This document shows, in pieces, positions 12,033-30,254 of a DNA stretch of 31,855 nt. Each line of letters begins with the position of its first letter. The first letter of the stretch is position 1. Both the position numbers and the translations under genes were made by a program. This DNA comes from a bacterium (GTDB taxonomy: Bacteria > SZUA-182 > DTGQ01): positions 1 to 31,855 of the forward strand of contig JAILZY010000037.1 of the NCBI GenBank assembly GCA_023512255.1, read 5' to 3'. The notes under the pieces were generated by a model. It ran no database searches. It saw only the letters and a list, made by a program, of their open reading frames with translations, and was not told the origin of the DNA.

Positions 12033-12869
12033 TTAAGGACAGTAGTCCTCAAGGTCTAAGATTGCGGTTTCAAACCCAAGTTCTTTCAAGCCGCTTGCAA
12101 TCTTTGGCCAAAGCCCAAGCCCCAGAATCCTTTTCCGATCAGCCGCCGAGGGCTGAACCCTGGCCAGTTGATTCTGAGCCGCCATTTGCCGCAGAGTCTT
12201 AGACTGCCCCTGATTTTGGCTATGGTAGCGAAGCCGGAAGCAGGATAGCCCAAGCTCCTTCAAGAATCTCTCTCCCCGATCAATGAGACTAAGTTTCTCC
12301 CTGCTCAAGGGCTCACCTTGGGGGAATCTTGTGGCCAGGCATGAGTCGGCAGGCTTATTCCAATTCGACAGGCCAAGCTCTTGAGCCAAAGCCCGCACCT
12401 CATCCTTTCGCAGCCCAGCCTCCCGCAAGGGGCTTCGGATGCCAAGCTCTTCAGAGGCCCGAAGCCCTGGCCGATGCTGCTCTAGGTCCTGAGCATTGGT
12501 GCCGTCAACCACCCAGGCCAAGCCTCTCTGTGCGGCTATTTGCTTGGCCACAGAAAACATTTTCCGCTTGCAGAGGTAGCATCGCTCAGCAGGGTTAGCA
12601 GAAAGGCCAGGCTCTTTGAGCAGATCGAGCGGCACGATCAGATGATGAGCGGCCATCTGGTTAGCTAGCAGAGCGGCCTGCTCGATTTCCTGTCGGGAAA
12701 TGAAGGGAGAATCTATGGTTATGGCCAGGCACTTATCACCCAGAGCCTCACGGACTAGGCTCAAGAGCAGGGAGCTATCGACTCCAGCAGAGAAGAGCAG
12801 TGCCGCACTCTCTAGGCTCCTGACTATGCCCTGGAGAGCTTTAAGTTTCTCTAGTAGGTATTTATCCAT
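12033..12869 (-). CDS. larE: ATP-dependent sacrificial sulfur transferase (LarE family)
   Basis: LarE family PP-loop ATPase that adenylates and thiolates carboxylates; in the founding case it builds the nickel-pincer cofactor of lactate racemase. In the 282-residue frame the PP-loop is SAGVDSS (31-37). A CYLC pair (Cys101, Cys104) follows the conserved AER. Cys181, in the DSCLATRFP motif, matches the sulfur-donating Cys of lactobacillus LarE. The ATG at 12869 (residue 5 of that frame) is preferred because GGAAG abuts the first ATG at 12881. No larA, larB or larC is nearby, so it may serve another nickel enzyme or another thiolation. No strong terminator was found after it. Confidence 0.85.
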   Translation of the reverse strand: MDKYLLEKLKALQGIVRSLESAALLFSAGVDSSLLLSLVREALGDKCLAITIDSPFISRQEIEQAALLANQMAAHHLIVPLDLLKEPGLSANPAERCYLCKRKMFSVAKQIAAQRGLAWVVDGTNAQDLEQHRPGLRASEELGIRSPLREAGLRKDEVRALAQELGLSNWNKPADSCLATRFPQGEPLSREKLSLIDRGERFLKELGLSCFRLRYHSQNQGQSKTLRQMAAQNQLARVQPSAADRKRILGLGLWPKIASGLKELGFETAILDLEDYCP

Positions 12870-13182
12870 GATCTGCCCCATCTTCCTGCTTTCCCTTATT
12901 TACTGTAACTCTATGCTTTTGCACTTTTTTCCGAACCTTTGATTTTACTGGATTTGCTATTATGAGATAATTTTTAAAGATTTCAAGGCGTTAAGAAATT
13001 TCTGCAAAAGTTTAGTGTAACTTATACTTTACCTTCGGTATTTGGAAAAAAGAGAGAAGTAGGCTCAACATACGAAGCAGGCTAAACATACATGGGAATA
13101 TGCCCCTCAAAGCCTTCAATAAAGGCTTTGGTCGACTCATCAAGAGAGCAAAGAGACTGCACACCAAGGTGCTGCTAGCCAT
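12870..13182. other. Gap between larE and glmM
   Basis: No coding region was recognised. It contains the tandem pair AGGCTCAACATACGAAGC (13061-13078) and AGGCTAAACATACATGGG (13079-13096), period 18. A GGG/CCC mini-hairpin around 13094-13106 and a perfect 9-base hairpin at 13108-13130 follow. Past the glmM stop, CCAAGGTGCTGCT (13165-13177) copies CCAAGATGCTGCT (13190-13202) in the glmM 3' end. Confidence 0.55.
13108..13130 (-). terminator. Hairpin downstream of glmM
   Basis: CAAAGCCTT (13108-13116) and AAGGCTTTG (13122-13130) form a perfect 9-base-pair stem with a 5-base loop, about 52 bases past the glmM stop. There is no T-run after it on the minus strand, so it is not a canonical intrinsic terminator. 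It could protect the 3' end or be a dispersed palindrome. Confidence 0.35.
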
Positions 13183-14529
13183 TTATGCCCCAAGATGCTG
13201 CTGCACCAGCGCGGTCAGCTCACTAGCTAGCCTTTCTGTGGTCTTAGCATCCGGCCCCTCAACCATGACTCGAACCATGAGCTGGGTTCCAGAATATCGA
13301 ACCAGTACCCGCCCCTGGTTTCCAAGCTCTGCCTCAGCCCGGCTGATTGCCTCTCGAATCTGCGGAACCTGAGTTAAATCCACCCTGGCCCGCACCGGCA
13401 CGCTAGTTAAAACCTGGGGATAGCGACGCATGATTTTCCCAAGCTCAGACACAGGCCCCGACTGCTCCCGAATCACCCGAAGAAGCCTTAAAGCAGCAAA
13501 AATCCCATCTCCAGTAGTTTGCTCACCATCCATGATGATGAGATGCCCTGAGTCCTCTCCGCCGATAACCGCGCCGCAGGCTTGCATCTCCTCCAGCACG
13601 TAGCGGTCTCCGACTTGGGTCTGCCGAACATTTAGCCCTAAGAGCTCGGCAGCTTTAAAAAACCCCAGATTGCTCATAACCGTGGTTACTACCAGGTTAT
13701 TGAGAAGAAGTCCCTTCTCCTTAAGATAGCGGGCCAGAATCAGGAGCATCTGATCGCCGCTCAAAATCGCTCCCTGCTCATCCACACAGATCAGCCGATC
13801 TCCATCCCCATCAAAAGAAAAGCCGACCTCAGCCCCCTGTTCCAGAACCTGCCTGGCCAGGGTCTCAGGGTATAGGGCTCCGCATTGATGATTGATATTG
13901 ATCCCATCGGGCTGAAAATGGATGGGATGTACCCTCGCTCCCAGCTCCTGAAAGAGGAAGGGAGCAATCGAGCTCGTGGCCCCATTAGCACAATCGAGAC
14001 AAATCTTCATCCCTGACAGATCAAGATCAATAAACGTGCACTTTAAAAAATCAAAATACTGCTGGACAGCATCCCTCACCTCCAGAATGCACCCGATCTG
14101 CCGTCCGGTCGGATGGGGGAATTCTTCATCTTCGGCCTGGATCCTCCTCTCCATTTCCATCTCCTGCTGATCAGTCAATTTGAATCCATCAGGGCCAAAC
14201 ACCTTAATACCATTGTCTTCCATGGGATTGTGAGAGGCGGAGATCACTACTCCGGCGGCTGCTTTGAGTTTTCTGGTCAGGTAGGCAATGCCGGGCGTGG
14301 GCAAAACCCCGACTCGATAGCAGGACCTCCCGCAGGAGGTGATTCCGGCCATTAAGGCCGCCTCCAGCATATCACCAGAGCGCCGTGGGTCCTTTCCCAC
14401 TACGATCCCCTTCCCTTCTGGGTCCAGAGTAACCGCGATCACCTGCCCTACCCGCACAACAGTTGAGGGAATCATGGGAGCGAGATTAGCTATTCCCCGA
14501 ATCCCGTCAGTGCCGAAAAATTTCCTCAT
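13183..14529 (-). CDS. glmM: Phosphoglucosamine mutase
   Basis: GlmM interconverts glucosamine-6-phosphate and glucosamine-1-phosphate on the way to UDP-GlcNAc. From the ATG at 14529 it has 448 residues, the family norm, and begins MRKFFGTDGIRG, the usual GlmM start. GGAGA lies 9 bases upstream. A longer open frame to 14634 would overlap the previous gene and is not needed. Ser99 in ISASHNP is the phosphoserine, the metal loop is DGDGDR, the sugar loop GGEDSGH, and the C-terminal phosphate loop is RYSGT. It lies 74 bases after the GlmS-like gene in the same direction, completing an amino-sugar block. Confidence 0.95.
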   Translation of the reverse strand: MRKFFGTDGIRGIANLAPMIPSTVVRVGQVIAVTLDPEGKGIVVGKDPRRSGDMLEAALMAGITSCGRSCYRVGVLPTPGIAYLTRKLKAAAGVVISASHNPMEDNGIKVFGPDGFKLTDQQEMEMERRIQAEDEEFPHPTGRQIGCILEVRDAVQQYFDFLKCTFIDLDLSGMKICLDCANGATSSIAPFLFQELGARVHPIHFQPDGININHQCGALYPETLARQVLEQGAEVGFSFDGDGDRLICVDEQGAILSGDQMLLILARYLKEKGLLLNNLVVTTVMSNLGFFKAAELLGLNVRQTQVGDRYVLEEMQACGAVIGGEDSGHLIIMDGEQTTGDGIFAALRLLRVIREQSGPVSELGKIMRRYPQVLTSVPVRARVDLTQVPQIREAISRAEAELGNQGRVLVRYSGTQLMVRVMVEGPDAKTTERLASELTALVQQHLGA

Positions 14530-14603: not shown

Positions 14604-17600
14604 TCAAGAATTTGACCTGCCCAGCCGGCTGCAAATAGCCTCGATGAGTGCATCATCGGATTTTAGGAAAAGCTCAGCCGTGGAAAATGAGGCCAGGAAT
14701 TCATCCTGCCAGGGAATATCGAGCTCAGCCAGGGCATCAATCAGGTCCTCATATTTGGAGCCCAGGGCGGCAACTTTAGTTTCCAGAGAGACATCCTCAT
14801 CAAATCCAATGTGAAATAGGAGCACAATCTTCTGATGGACGCTCTCGCCCTGAGCAGGGATAATCAAGAGCTGGGCCTGATCAGATTTCCCAAGGCCGAT
14901 GAAAACAGTGTTATTGGTAACAATACTCCGTTTGTTGCCACGCAGCCTTGAGTCTTTTTCAACCCGTGAGGCAAGATTTAGAGAGATTCCCCCTCGGCCA
15001 ATGATTCTTATGGTCGAGTTTTCAGTGGGCCTCCCTAAATAATCTAACTGATTGACTTCATAGAGAGTATAGCCATGAATAGTTTTGATTACCGGCTGGA
15101 GCCGTCTCAAGGTAGCCAGATTGGGAGGGGAGAATTTTTCGATCGGCAGCCCGATCTGCCGAATGGTTTCGAAGATATGGCCGGTCAAAAGCTCAGGCAG
15201 ACGGCTCGTTCCGACAGTAACCGTTTTGGCCTGGTGTTTTATGGCATCAATTGGCCGGGAAAGCTCATTAATAGCCTGATCCAAAGCCTTTTGCAGGAGG
15301 TTAAGGCAGCAGCTAATACCGCCTTCTAGTTGAAAATCCCGGTCAAGGTCAGTGATCGGCAGCTTTCCGGCAGCATACTTCAACAGCAAGATCAAATTGG
15401 CAATGGTATTCGGTTTCATGGCTGCATTGAAGACTCCGGCGGAATTTTTCTGATGCAGGAGGAAAGCAGCCTCACTGGCCAGATTCTGAAAATTCAGATC
15501 AAAGATAATTTCCAGCGGATTTCGGCCTGCACTTTCAAGCTCAACGATTTTCTGGTTGATCATCTGACGTGAGGTTCTCAAAAAGTTTGCCTCTTCATCA
15601 ATATTCAGAGCCGCATAATATCCCCACAGATGCCCGACCAGGGTGTTGAGAATCGGCGACAGCCGCTCACTGGTGCGGGGAATCTCAATCAGAGAATCCG
15701 CACATCCTTGAAATCGCTTTTCTCCTTCATTGGCAATAACGATCGTTGTGGCCTTATGAGCTTTAAAAATAGCCACATCTTTAATAATATCCCCCAGGAC
15801 CACCTCTCGGCTTCCGGCTGCACAGACCAAAACCAGGGGCTCGGCTGAAAGATCAATATGCTTTCTGTCTTCAACCACATCAGCGGGCAGGGTTTTGTAG
15901 CACAACTCGCTGAGCTTGATGCGAATCTCATCTGCGGCAACCTTATTTGGTCCGCTGCCCACTACGGCCCAGTGCCTTTTTGACAGCGCCCACTTTTTGG
16001 CTGAAGCCGCGATCTGATCCTGTTTCTCCTGAAGCACCTGACTCATCAGCCGGGGAAGCCTCTTCAGCTGCTTAACCTCCTGGATCAGGTATTCATCCGG
16101 ACGAAGCCCCATAATTTGCGCAAAACGCAAACCCAGGAGATAGCCAGCCACAATCTGAGAATAGAAGGCCTTAGTTGAGGCCACCGACATTTCAATATCC
16201 CGTCCGTCACTGGTGTAGAAGACCCCATCGACCTTGTAGGTAATGTCAGAATCACGGCGGTTGACAATAGCCAGAGTGTAGGCCCCAGCCTCTTTAGCCA
16301 TATCGACTGCTTTATTGGTATCGGTGGTTGTCCCTGATTGGGTAACCGCGATGACCAGGGTATTATCCATCCTGCCGTCAAGGCAAAAGCCGCTCAGCTC
16401 AGAGGCCTTCTGCTCGGCGATATGAATTCCGGAGTTGCTCAGATACTCCCGCAGCAGCATAGCGATGCCACTGGCAGCAATGCCTGCCGTGCCCTGCCCC
16501 ACTAGATAGATATGCTTGATCAGCCGCTCACGCAGAGCCTGCTCGATCCGAGAAGGTATTATCTCTTCGCCTAGATTGAAGACTACCTGCCGCGGGGACT
16601 CTCCAGAATCTCCCCCCCCGACAAGCACCAGGTCAGCCTTTCCTCTGATAGTCTTTTGCACCGACTGAGGAGATTCTGATATCTCCTTGAGAAAATAGTG
16701 GAAGAAGCCCCGGCGGTCAATGTCTCGGGTCGTAATCTCAGTAGACTGAATCGCTTTGTCAGAAAGAGCCAGTGGGAAACCATCATAGCCCATAGCCACG
16801 ATCCCATCCAGATGTCCCGAAGTGTCGGCATCAAGGATGAAAATCTGTCCCTGGGTTTTGGGCTCACCTGCAATCCGCTCTCGCTCGCCATCCATTTTTA
16901 TAAACCGGGAGGTTTCTTCAACAAATCCGTAGATCTCGGAGGCAGGGAAATACCCCTCTTCGCCAATCCCGACAAAAATGGACTGGCCGCTACCGCGCAA
17001 AGCCAAAAAAATCCGACCAGGCTCAAGCTCGCTCTGTAGGGCAATGGCATGAGAGCCCTCAAAATCATTTACCGCCCGACGGAAGGATTCGGCCAAATCA
17101 TACCCTTTCCTCAGATAGCTCTCGACCTGCAGGGGGATGATCTTGGTGTCAGTGGTGATCCTCTCGCTAAGGCACCGATTTGGATTTTCCCGCTCCCAGC
17201 AAGCCCTAAGGTGCACATAGTTATCGATGTCGCCATTCAAAACAGCCTGCAAACTGCCAACTGGCCGCTGATAGTGGGGAGAGATAAAGTCAGAAATCAC
17301 CTCATGGCGTTTAATTTCCCCCCCTCCTGGCTGGCCTTCAATGAGATATGAGGCGTTATTAACCGGATGGCAATTCTCTTCACTGATCATGCCAACGGAT
17401 GCCCATCGGGTATGGGCAATGATATTGGTGAAAATGCCCCTCTCCTGAAGAGCAAGATGGAAGATAGGGTCTTGGGTGATAGTTCGGCGAAGGAAAGCTA
17501 CGTTATCCCCCAGTTTGCCGATTTCGGCTGCCACTTTGAAGGTAAAAATCATGGTCGGAGGACGACAGGCAATGTGGCCACTCAAAAGATCGCGGATTTT

Positions 17601-18383
17601 GGTACGCTGCTCAAACTGATCTTCCAAACCTTGGGCTTTTAGTTTGTTCAAAAATTCTTCTAAAGCCACTTGATCAGGGAAGGTGATCATGACGGAAATA
17701 CCGGCTGAGTCACGGCCCCGAATCTCAAGCCGATCAAGGTTATTCAAGATGAAGTTAATCTTGCGAAACTCCTGAATAAGCTGAGGCGAGGGAGAGCTGT
17801 CCGAACTTTGGCCGAGCAATCCCTTAACCTTGTCAAGGTTGGCCCCAACTTCATTCTCTATGCTCCAGATAATATCTTTCAGGGCAACGAGATTGTTGTT
17901 CATAAGCTCAAGAAGACTTGAAGGGATTTTGATCCCCTCTTTTTCCACAAGCCGCTCCTCGCGCTCGAGCAAGGATTTCAGATTCTGAGCCTGCTTCAAA
18001 AAGCCCGCGCAGATAGCCCCTCCCTGCATAAGATCGTAAAAAACCTCGGCCCGTTTGCTCTGTTGAACCATCTGCTTCAGCTCCCTGAGCAGTTCGGTTT
18101 GCTGATGCACCCAGGAAAGGGAGAATTCATCTGACTGGGGGCTCTGGCTACCCAGCTTTTCTACCAGCTCCTGAATCTTAGCCACAATCTGCTCAGCCTT
18201 CAGGGGCTTGCTTTTTCTTCTAAATTCCAAAATGCCCACTAGCCCACAACACAGAAGATTAGGCCTGTAGGGAAACAGAACAATGGCTGAATGGGAGAGA
18301 TATTTTGGACAACTGACCCAATAGATCCTCGGCAAATATCTTTGAGCAAATCTTGTGGCGACCTTAATCATGTATCTTATCAT
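14604..18383 (-). CDS. Oversized GlmS-like glutamine--fructose-6-phosphate aminotransferase
   Basis: 1259 residues against about 610 for ordinary GlmS. The glutaminase part is recognisable: Cys46-Gly-Leu-Val-Gly, RGRDSAG (222-228), AHTRWASVG (323-331), Asn383-Gly384 and Asp412 in TTDTK. The synthase part has HYFLKEISESP (562-572), a first SIS domain with TQSGTTTDT (681-689) and EMSVASTKAF, and a second with Lys823, Glu826, Lys841 and His842 at the spacing of E. coli Lys485, Glu488, Lys503 and His504. AKTVTVG (1052-1058) recalls the GlmS tail, making Lys1053 the likely sugar-binding lysine. Additions are a roughly 45-residue N-terminal stretch (propeptide?), helical insertions near 55-210, 232-320 and 910-1040, and a 200-residue C-terminal extension. 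Its ATG directly follows the stop of the acetyltransferase gene. THG of the glutaminase is SVG here. Confidence 0.82.
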   Translation of the reverse strand: MIRYMIKVATRFAQRYLPRIYWVSCPKYLSHSAIVLFPYRPNLLCCGLVGILEFRRKSKPLKAEQIVAKIQELVEKLGSQSPQSDEFSLSWVHQQTELLRELKQMVQQSKRAEVFYDLMQGGAICAGFLKQAQNLKSLLEREERLVEKEGIKIPSSLLELMNNNLVALKDIIWSIENEVGANLDKVKGLLGQSSDSSPSPQLIQEFRKINFILNNLDRLEIRGRDSAGISVMITFPDQVALEEFLNKLKAQGLEDQFEQRTKIRDLLSGHIACRPPTMIFTFKVAAEIGKLGDNVAFLRRTITQDPIFHLALQERGIFTNIIAHTRWASVGMISEENCHPVNNASYLIEGQPGGGEIKRHEVISDFISPHYQRPVGSLQAVLNGDIDNYVHLRACWERENPNRCLSERITTDTKIIPLQVESYLRKGYDLAESFRRAVNDFEGSHAIALQSELEPGRIFLALRGSGQSIFVGIGEEGYFPASEIYGFVEETSRFIKMDGERERIAGEPKTQGQIFILDADTSGHLDGIVAMGYDGFPLALSDKAIQSTEITTRDIDRRGFFHYFLKEISESPQSVQKTIRGKADLVLVGGGDSGESPRQVVFNLGEEIIPSRIEQALRERLIKHIYLVGQGTAGIAASGIAMLLREYLSNSGIHIAEQKASELSGFCLDGRMDNTLVIAVTQSGTTTDTNKAVDMAKEAGAYTLAIVNRRDSDITYKVDGVFYTSDGRDIEMSVASTKAFYSQIVAGYLLGLRFAQIMGLRPDEYLIQEVKQLKRLPRLMSQVLQEKQDQIAASAKKWALSKRHWAVVGSGPNKVAADEIRIKLSELCYKTLPADVVEDRKHIDLSAEPLVLVCAAGSREVVLGDIIKDVAIFKAHKATTIVIANEGEKRFQGCADSLIEIPRTSERLSPILNTLVGHLWGYYAALNIDEEANFLRTSRQMINQKIVELESAGRNPLEIIFDLNFQNLASEAAFLLHQKNSAGVFNAAMKPNTIANLILLLKYAAGKLPITDLDRDFQLEGGISCCLNLLQKALDQAINELSRPIDAIKHQAKTVTVGTSRLPELLTGHIFETIRQIGLPIEKFSPPNLATLRRLQPVIKTIHGYTLYEVNQLDYLGRPTENSTIRIIGRGGISLNLASRVEKDSRLRGNKRSIVTNNTVFIGLGKSDQAQLLIIPAQGESVHQKIVLLFHIGFDEDVSLETKVAALGSKYEDLIDALAELDIPWQDEFLASFSTAELFLKSDDALIEAICSRLGRSNS

Positions 18384-19202
18384 CTACTTATCATCCCGCC
18401 TTTCGATCAGCTGTTGATCCTGTTTGACCTTGACAATAACAGAGGGAGGATAATAACCTCTCAAGGTTGCGTTCGGATAGGCCAAGACATTTGGGCTAAC
18501 GATGGTGCCCGGTGCGGTTACTGTATTGCATCCGGTCTCGACTCCATCGCCTAAAATTGCCCCCATCTTCCGTAGCCCGGTCTGATATCGCTTCCCCTCC
18601 ACAGTAACCGTAACTGAAGAGGAGAAAACCTTCAGGTTAGCCAGCTTAGTGCCAGCTCCAAGATTAACCTTGCCTAAGATGCTGTCTCCGATATAAGAAA
18701 AGTGCCCGGCCTTGCTATCTCCAAGGAGAATGGAGTGCTTGACCTCTGTGGTATGTCCCACCACACACCGAGACCCAACCAGGACATGACCACGAATGTA
18801 GGCTCCCTGGCGAACCTCGGTAAAGTCGCCAATAATGGTTGGTCCCATGATCAGAGCACCAGGCTCAACTACGGTCCCCTGGCCGATATAGATATTTGGG
18901 TCCATGATGATTGATCCGGCATACAGAATACTTGCCTCAGGGCACAAGTTGTTTTCAAAAATGACCCGAGGAGAACTACCACTAGATCGGTCAAGGTGAA
19001 ACCCCCGATCGAATAATTTCCCCTGGTAGATAATATATGTTTTCGACAGCACCCCAAGGGGAAGATCAGCAAGATTAGGATGAAGGTGGTCTGAAATGAA
19101 ATTTTTTAGCTTTTTCAAAGGATTCCAGACTTCCTCTTCTGGTGAGAAAAGGTCTGGAAATGGAAAATTTGCTAAATTAAAAAAATTTTTTGCTTCTATC
19201 AT
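18384..19202 (-). CDS. Stand-alone GlmU-like left-handed beta-helix acetyltransferase
   Basis: 272 residues. The first 75 form a helical lead containing PFPDLFSPEEEVWNPLKKLK, followed by hexapeptide repeats (about 80-250) of a left-handed beta-helix. The stretch GDSKAGHFSYIGD (161-173) closely resembles the GlmU acetyltransferase site SKAGHLTYLGD, so His167 is the likely catalytic base. NLGAGTKLANL (180-190) matches GlmU NIGAGT. The uridylyltransferase half of GlmU is absent. Likely role: N-acetylation of glucosamine-1-phosphate or another sugar phosphate, inferred from the next two genes. A role in sugar-nucleotide synthesis other than UDP-GlcNAc is possible. It is the first gene of the block, preceded by a hairpin (19221-19263). 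No good ribosome binding site is visible. Confidence 0.8.
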   Translation of the reverse strand: MIEAKNFFNLANFPFPDLFSPEEEVWNPLKKLKNFISDHLHPNLADLPLGVLSKTYIIYQGKLFDRGFHLDRSSGSSPRVIFENNLCPEASILYAGSIIMDPNIYIGQGTVVEPGALIMGPTIIGDFTEVRQGAYIRGHVLVGSRCVVGHTTEVKHSILLGDSKAGHFSYIGDSILGKVNLGAGTKLANLKVFSSSVTVTVEGKRYQTGLRKMGAILGDGVETGCNTVTAPGTIVSPNVLAYPNATLRGYYPPSVIVKVKQDQQLIERRDDK

Positions 19203-28706: not shown

Positions 28707-30254
28707 ATGCTCTCTTTCCTGTTTCTCTTAACAATAGCAGTTGTCGAGGGAATAATTTTTTTCTCCCTACTAAAGGGACCAGACCAGCGAGATGAGGCTA
28801 CTCAATCGGCGCAAGATGATATTGGCAGCTTCAGCCACCAGCAGGAGAAAAAGACTGATCTATGGCTAAGGTGGCAGCAGGCAAAAGAGGGGAGAAAATC
28901 TAGCCCCCAAAATTTGCACCCCTTATCTTCTTCTTCTGATGGCCATGCTGACGAAGGCAGGGGGAAAAAGATGCCTCTGGCTAGCTCTTCCTCTGTCCAT
29001 GACCTTGATGGTGAATCTCCTGCTCAAAGGTCTAGGGGGCATATTTCTCCTGAAGTCAGTTTGGCCGAAATTGCTGACTACGATACTCTTAATCATAGCT
29101 ATACGCTTAAAAAGGCAGACCTTTCCTCATCAGAGAATAACTCCTCATCTAGGCTTCTGGCTGCTCTCAAAATACTTAACCGACAGGGTATGCCCACGGA
29201 TTATTTTCGCACCCCTGAGTATAAGGCGGTTTATAGTGAAATTGACCGTTTTTACCCCGACTCCTATATCTGGCCCTATTTTACCAATCCAGAAGCTAGA
29301 GCCAATTTTTTTCTATTTCTATTCACAAAATATGCGGATGATAACAAAAACTGGAGACCGTACGAAAAAAATAAGTCTGACTGCTCTCAATTTTCTCAGC
29401 GGATTTACCTGATGCTCTCACCAGATGAGATCAAGATCAAGGATGAGGAGTACTTTCGTTTTCTTTTCTCTAATCCAAAAGCTAGAGAGGAAAGAAAAAA
29501 GCTCTGCAATAAAATTCCTACGGTTTTCTATACCACACTGACTCCCTACCTCTTGAAGAAGATTCGGTCAACCTTTTTTTCTTCTTCTCCTTCCGCTCAT
29601 GCCATGATTTCCTTTGCCCCACAAGGGCATCTTTCGCGAGGAGTGATTTTGGCCGAGCCCCAGAGCGAAGACTGGGAAAGCTTAGATGAAGGAAACCTGG
29701 GGAATATTCTGAATAATCTGGATATGACCCAATATCCCCTGATCTGTCAGATGGGCAAGATTTTAACTATAGAGGAAAATAGCTCACATGAGGCCAGGAT
29801 GGCTGTTTCGGGGATCTATCTGATCCCACGAATTTCACCACCTGCCGATCTTAAGGAAGAAAACGGGGAAGACCCTCGCTGGGATTATAGCCAAAAACCC
29901 ATCCTGATACCAGCTCAAACCTATCAACTATTCCGACTCATCTCCTCCTACCTAAGGCGCAAGCTTAATGATCAGCCAACTGATCGGCTAGGGTTTCTTC
30001 ATTCGCTGGAGGAGATGGCCCTTGGGGGAAAGCTTTATTTCTCTTCTCTGGAAAGTGATCTTGACTCTTCGGTCAACCTTATCATGCATGGCCTAATTGA
30101 TTTAGAGCAGGAGGATCTGCGCTCTATCAAGGATGAACTGGAGGAGCTCAGGGAGCTGGCCACTAATCAGCCTAGCCTCTCGCCGCAGATCATAGATTTT
30201 ACCTCTCAGCTCAAGCATATTTTTTTACTCAGGCTTGAGCCCTTCCTAGAGTGA
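28707..30254 (+). CDS. Unrecognised membrane-anchored protein, possible papain-like fold
   Basis: 515 residues, family not recognised. A hydrophobic N-terminal helix (about 2-22) is followed by a Ser/Glu/Asp-rich low-complexity region (25-150), then a folded part (150-515) rich in helices and aromatics. FTNPEARANFF (192-202) and FSNPKAREERK (254-264) look like a repeated motif. Cys226 in SDCSQFSQRIYLML, His298 in SAHAMISF and Glu317-Pro-Gln in ILAEPQSED recall the Cys/His/Glu-Pro-Gln order of some transglutaminase-like or NlpC-like proteins, with Cys at a helix start; this is inference. The C-terminus is Leu/Glu-rich. The ATG has no clear ribosome binding site, and a structured leader precedes it. 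It is convergent with pyruvate kinase and not obviously part of the cytochrome operon. Confidence 0.72.
   Translation: MLSFLFLLTIAVVEGIIFFSLLKGPDQRDEATQSAQDDIGSFSHQQEKKTDLWLRWQQAKEGRKSSPQNLHPLSSSSDGHADEGRGKKMPLASSSSVHDLDGESPAQRSRGHISPEVSLAEIADYDTLNHSYTLKKADLSSSENNSSSRLLAALKILNRQGMPTDYFRTPEYKAVYSEIDRFYPDSYIWPYFTNPEARANFFLFLFTKYADDNKNWRPYEKNKSDCSQFSQRIYLMLSPDEIKIKDEEYFRFLFSNPKAREERKKLCNKIPTVFYTTLTPYLLKKIRSTFFSSSPSAHAMISFAPQGHLSRGVILAEPQSEDWESLDEGNLGNILNNLDMTQYPLICQMGKILTIEENSSHEARMAVSGIYLIPRISPPADLKEENGEDPRWDYSQKPILIPAQTYQLFRLISSYLRRKLNDQPTDRLGFLHSLEEMALGGKLYFSSLESDLDSSVNLIMHGLIDLEQEDLRSIKDELEELRELATNQPSLSPQIIDFTSQLKHIFLLRLEPFLE

Follow-up and report, generated by a model that had tools for sequence, protein, structure and literature searches.

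A double-length GlmS-like amidotransferase with a probable propeptide and an internal lysine loop

Introduction

Peptidoglycan and lipopolysaccharide both depend on GlmS for their amino sugar; the product of the enzyme, glucosamine-6-phosphate (GlcN-6-P), is the first cell-wall building block, and GlmS is a studied antimicrobial target. GlcN-6-P synthase subunits span 589–716 residues (review, PMC9272926), a range well exceeded by the 1259-residue GlmS-like protein encoded in the stretch of bacterial DNA analyzed here (31,855 nucleotides, hereafter the window). Does a protein of this length still make GlcN-6-P, and what do its additional parts do?

Results

A long sister form of GlmS

The gene and its two immediate neighbors are all encoded on the minus strand.

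14604–18383, minus strand: long GlmS-like amidotransferase/isomerase, whole gene (open reading frame of 1259 amino acids plus stop)
18384–19202, minus strand: left-handed beta-helix acyltransferase resembling the GlmU C-terminal half (TIGR03992, E 9e-44, residues 99–246)
13183–14529, minus strand: GlmM, phosphoglucosamine mutase, start taken at MRKFFGTDG (TIGR01455, 541 bits, cut-off 448)

The original prediction, which gave no strand, had described a double-length GlmS-like enzyme, and this description is borne out by sequence, fold prediction, gene neighborhood and the absence of another GlmS. The protein matches the NCBIfam GlmS model TIGR01135 (EC 2.6.1.16) with an E value of 6.9e-69 and 232.9 bits (curated cut-off 418); Pfam recognizes one SIS domain, with the class II glutamine amidotransferase domain falling below its cut-off. 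The resemblance to GlmS is not due to chance, because it combines an E value of 7e-69 to TIGR01135 with Z scores of about 43 to solved GFAT/GlmS structures. Since the bit score lies below the curated cut-off, the window protein is a long sister form and not a TIGR01135 member: it is probably GlmS-like in its working, but by cut-off, length and phylogenetic tree it stands beside the standard family. NagB-II/SIS deaminases (NF046059) share the double-SIS arrangement but have no glutaminase domain, whereas that of the window protein is complete; the score against NF046059 is 68 bits (cut-off 430), which places the protein outside that family.

Retention of both GlmS active sites

The residues named in the original prediction were found at the numbers it gave and align with their E. 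coli counterparts. The corresponding features, in comparison with the other long forms described below and with 23 ordinary GlmS, are as follows.

18246–18248, minus strand: Cys46, predicted glutaminase nucleophile (E. coli Cys1); cysteine in 9/10 long forms and 23/23 ordinary GlmS
17700–17720, minus strand: RGRDSAG motif (E. coli RGYDSAG, 26–32), by alignment
17403–17408, minus strand: Arg326-Trp327 (E. coli Arg73-Trp74), invariant in long and ordinary forms
17232–17237, minus strand: Asn383-Gly384 (E. coli Asn98-Gly99, oxyanion hole), invariant
17148–17150, minus strand: Asp412 (E. coli Asp123), invariant
15594–16718, minus strand: double-SIS isomerase domain, residues 556–930; 342 residues superpose on 1moq, rmsd 2.1
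16326–16340, minus strand: QSGTT sugar-phosphate loop, residues 682–686 (E. coli QSGET, 348–352); Q, S, G and the second T invariant
15858–15929, minus strand: Glu819, Lys823, Glu826 and Lys841-His842 cluster (E. coli 481, 485, 488, 503–504), invariant
15210–15257, minus strand: RPIDAIKHQAKTVTVG loop with Lys1053 (E. coli AKSVTVE end, Lys603), identical in the nine full-length long forms

The counterparts of Cys1, Glu488, His504, Lys603 and the substrate-binding residues of GlmS are thus all matched in the window protein, and the catalytic residues of both sites are invariant across the long forms, save in G387, the tenth, which is truncated ahead of the nucleophile cysteine. The 1104-residue frame in G387 (L055:5223-8537) lacks both start and cysteine, probably through a frameshift in a fragmented assembly. 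Several other positions have changed throughout the long forms (E. coli numbering: T76S, H77V/N, E351T, KHG(P/N) to KHID at Gly505-Pro506, E608G), the position of E. coli Glu351 being threonine in all of them. The alanine at residue 633, where E. coli has Ser303, is ordinary, since 10/23 normal GlmS also carry alanine there. The original prediction had raised an altered substrate, and this gained no positive support: the catalytic residues do not vary, and the genome yielded no GlcN-6-P source besides this gene.

Residues 46–1245 were modeled with AlphaFold2 from an alignment of the window protein, one long relative (L039) and 24 ordinary GlmS, the latter encoded on virus contigs and trimmed of their lysine tails. 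Mean pLDDT was 71.9, with high values in the core. The overlay on E. coli GlmS that the original prediction had proposed aligned this mature-form model with 584/608 residues of 2j6h at Z 41.4, a core match that is partly expected because ordinary GlmS make up most of the alignment. No structure matched better than human GFAT-1 (6r4e and others), which gave Z about 43 across 590–604 residues (in one superposition 590 residues, Z 43.6, rmsd 4.8), and single domains fitted better than the whole, as with the glutaminase domain on 1xff (239/239 residues, rmsd 1.8). Both domains of 2j6h and 6r4e, the class II glutaminase and the double-SIS isomerase, were matched in order within one chain. The model leaves Lys1053 unplaced, with a pLDDT of about 27 in that region. 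The window protein resembles bacterial GlmS (TIGR01135; 2j6h, 1moq, 1xff) in its domain order, its catalytic residues and its AKxVTV lysine loop. It differs from it in having twice the length, a leader, insertions at 57–208 and 931–1040, an internal lysine loop, a 200-residue tail and a deep, separate branch; GFAT-1, at about 680 residues, likewise lacks a leader, long insertions and a tail of this type.

A conserved leader ahead of Cys46

18249–18383, minus strand: leader, residues 1–45, probable propeptide; conserved in 5/5 order members, absent in the second phylum

Between 41 and 51 residues precede the equivalent of Cys46 in the five members of the window's order, and Tyr21, Pro26, Phe37, Pro38, Asn42 and Leu44 are invariant among them. 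Relative to the nearest genome (G001), the dN/dS of the leader is about 0.20, indicating purifying selection. The long forms of the second phylum have no leader and begin at Met-Cys-Gly-Ile (MCGIVG). This start marks Cys46 as the nucleophile and shows the leader to be an addition specific to the order. The possibility that translation instead begins at or close to Cys46 was rejected: residue 45 reads C, G, C, R and C across the order members, none of them offers a start that would yield Met-Cys-Gly, and selection acts on the leader. A lipoprotein or membrane leader was also rejected, as hydropathy over 19 residues does not exceed 1.14 and the members have no lipobox in common.

In Ntn-type glutaminases, catalysis relies on an N-terminal cysteine with a free amino group. 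Conserved residues ahead of the catalytic cysteine, as in the PurF/GltB-type propeptide class, are present here. PurF/GPRAT enzymes with a propeptide (B. subtilis, Arabidopsis GPRAT2) remove such residues autocatalytically (PMC7056826); the likeness of the window protein to them lies in the residues before the cysteine, as read from sequence, and where PurF/GPRAT has a phosphoribosyltransferase domain the window protein has SIS domains. From the sequence and this likeness, the leader is probably removed. The cleaved propeptide of the original prediction thus receives indirect support, from the second-phylum starts at the cysteine and from the low dN/dS. A literature search, thin on subscription journals, returned no GlmS propeptide and no long GlmS.

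Insertions, an internal lysine loop and a C-terminal tail

17760–18215, minus strand: helical insertion in the glutaminase domain, residues 57–208; predicted helical bundle, most blocks at pLDDT 65–87
15264–15593, minus strand: helical insertion between SIS2 and the lysine loop, residues 931–1040; helical, mostly pLDDT 60–90
14607–15209, minus strand: C-terminal tail domain, residues 1059–1259; its profile matches long forms only

Of the additional parts that had been proposed, the leader, the helical stretch before RGRDSAG and the tail were recovered; an insertion assigned to the second SIS domain instead follows SIS2, at residues 931–1040, and is absent from ordinary GlmS. The insertion at 57–208 separates the first strand from RGRDSAG and is similar in position and length in the two clades. 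Taken alone, the between-clade profile match is weak (hhalign P 0.005), but homology is supported by the shared position together with E159, N162, D170 and W173. Smaller insertions occur between RGRDSAG and HTRWAS, around 345–372 and around 502–545. By sequence, the tail and inserts gave no convincing Pfam or PDB match, and by fold the tail yielded a low-confidence model (pLDDT 55; best Foldseek E 0.05) that is not interpretable.

In ordinary GlmS the chain ends at AKSVTVE, whereas in the long form it continues, leaving the lysine loop internal. A tail of about 200 residues is consequently well placed to control loop closure and hence activity, and a conserved domain directly after the loop suggests that it could move the loop and gate the sugar site. 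Altered regulation is plausible. A regulatory role for the tail and insertions in particular is a possibility that we rate somewhat below even.

Distribution and divergence of the long form

The long GlmS is present in 5/5 genomes of the window's order, where the four further orthologues are 48–82% identical over their full length, and in 5/5 genomes of a second, distant phylum, at about 40% identity; the family ranges from 1169 to 1274 amino acids. A profile of the last 330 residues, run against a spread of 386 genomes, found one further genus, which belongs to this small second phylum, all five genomes of which carry the long form. Two other phyla, with 195 and 82 genomes, had no match to the C-terminal profile; a re-centered genome spread gave matches in six genomes, all of them already-known carriers. 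About 660 distinct genomes were covered by tail-profile searches in total, with matches in the ten long-form genomes alone, so the long form may occur more widely. Virus contigs had ordinary GlmS only, and plasmids gave zero matches covering 80% of the query.

A normal-length GlmS was sought elsewhere in the window's genome, as the original prediction had proposed, and none exceeded the TIGR01135 cut-off; the same was true of all ten long-form genomes (0/10), against 3/4 other genomes of the same class. Neither a long nor an ordinary GlmS was found in G006, a class member with only a 407-residue frame that has a glutaminase-type match; the genome being incomplete (89%) may explain this. In a tree computed by a quick method, the ten long forms were separated from 23 ordinary GlmS by a branch with SH-aLRT 100 and a length of 3.7 + 3.3, or about 7 changes per site. 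Over such a branch function could have shifted; the distance would allow a changed acceptor or changed regulation. In two small, distantly related groups of uncultured bacteria, the long form very probably stands in for the ordinary enzyme.

Amino-sugar genes around the long form

The stop codon of the acyltransferase gene abuts the ATG of the long GlmS. GlmM and the GlmU-type acetyltransferase flank the long form in the window's genome and in G001, and both lie downstream of it in G003; in G004, GlmM, the acetyltransferase and nagB (glucosamine-6-phosphate deaminase) are all nearby. NagB can run in reverse to GlcN-6-P, and nagB was not found in the window's genome or in G001. The nagB gene of G004 (L057:7512-8300) lies directly downstream of the long form on the same strand, 20-odd bases away, and the two are possibly a synthesis/breakdown pair in one operon.

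A GlmU-type uridylyltransferase is kept in the six long-form genomes tested of the ten. In the window's genome, a frame of 368 amino acids (C133:42352-43326) encodes a uridylyltransferase-type protein that matches GlmU 2–323 and is without a full acetyltransferase half. GlmU thus seems to be split, with the uridylyltransferase elsewhere and the beta-helix acetyltransferase (18384–19202) beside the long form. GlmU matches in the second-phylum long-form genomes also end near position 310–318. No glmS ribozyme or other RNA element was matched by Rfam in the window. Elsewhere in the window, LarE (sacrificial sulfur transferase, over its cut-off; 12033–12881) adjoins GlmM, and a 515-residue protein with a Ser-rich N-terminus (28707–30254) lies between a multihaem-cytochrome-like gene and a pyruvate kinase gene.

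Discussion

The invariant catalytic residues, the lack of an ordinary GlmS, the lack of nagB in the window's genome and the GlmM and GlmU-type flanking genes together point to a GlcN-6-P synthase. We consider with good confidence, from the residues, predicted fold, context and sole copy, that the protein catalyzes GlcN-6-P synthesis. In double-length form, it is probably the organism's only L-glutamine:D-fructose-6-phosphate amidotransferase. In the mechanism that we propose, the leader of about 45 residues would be cut off in what is probably an autocatalytic step, leaving Cys46 at the N-terminus as the nucleophile; this residue would then hydrolyze glutamine, and the ammonia would pass to the double-SIS domain, where fructose-6-phosphate would be opened by Lys1053 and isomerized to GlcN-6-P by Glu826 and His842. 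The product would be consumed by GlmM, encoded next door.

If the protein were a glutamine-dependent amidotransferase-isomerase whose substrate is not fructose-6-phosphate but another sugar phosphate, for example in a modified-sugar pathway, this would account for the very long branch to ordinary GlmS and for the family-wide substitutions, from T76S to E608G. Such an enzyme is unlikely, however, given that every catalytic residue is kept, that GlmM and GlmU-type genes adjoin, and that the ten genomes have no other GlmS while the six tested retain the uridylyltransferase. We regard as similarly improbable that in the leader-bearing order the leader stays on, with a glutaminase site that is silent or uses an internal cysteine and with free ammonia as the nitrogen source. 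Ntn glutaminases do require a free N-terminal cysteine, and the leader is conserved and shows a variable residue 45 (C, G or R); but the invariance of Cys46, Arg326, Asn383 and Asp412 would be unexpected in a dead site, and PurF-class relatives are known to cleave their leaders. An assembly chimera or frameshift in one metagenome-derived genome might be suspected from its 172 contigs, but this is refuted by a single open frame whose architecture recurs in ten genomes of two phyla (except for the truncated start in G387) and by purifying selection across the whole protein, leaving such an artefact a negligible prospect.

Beyond the preferred assignment as a GlcN-6-P synthase, a more tentative and rather doubtful proposal is that of a zymogen-type enzyme, in which removal of the leader from Cys1 would be the switch and the tail a lever on the lysine loop, with ordinary GlmS replaced in two phyla. 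If true, this would be the first GlmS activated by leader removal, with a new regulatory tail domain. New in any case are the order-specific leader under purifying selection, the internal lysine loop with its conserved tail, and the very long branch between long and ordinary forms. That an organism's sole GlmS can run to about 1250 residues, carry a probable propeptide and have its lysine loop inside the chain indicates that the enzyme can be extensively rebuilt with its catalytic residues intact, and makes the long form a natural experiment on the control of the C-terminal loop and the ammonia channel.
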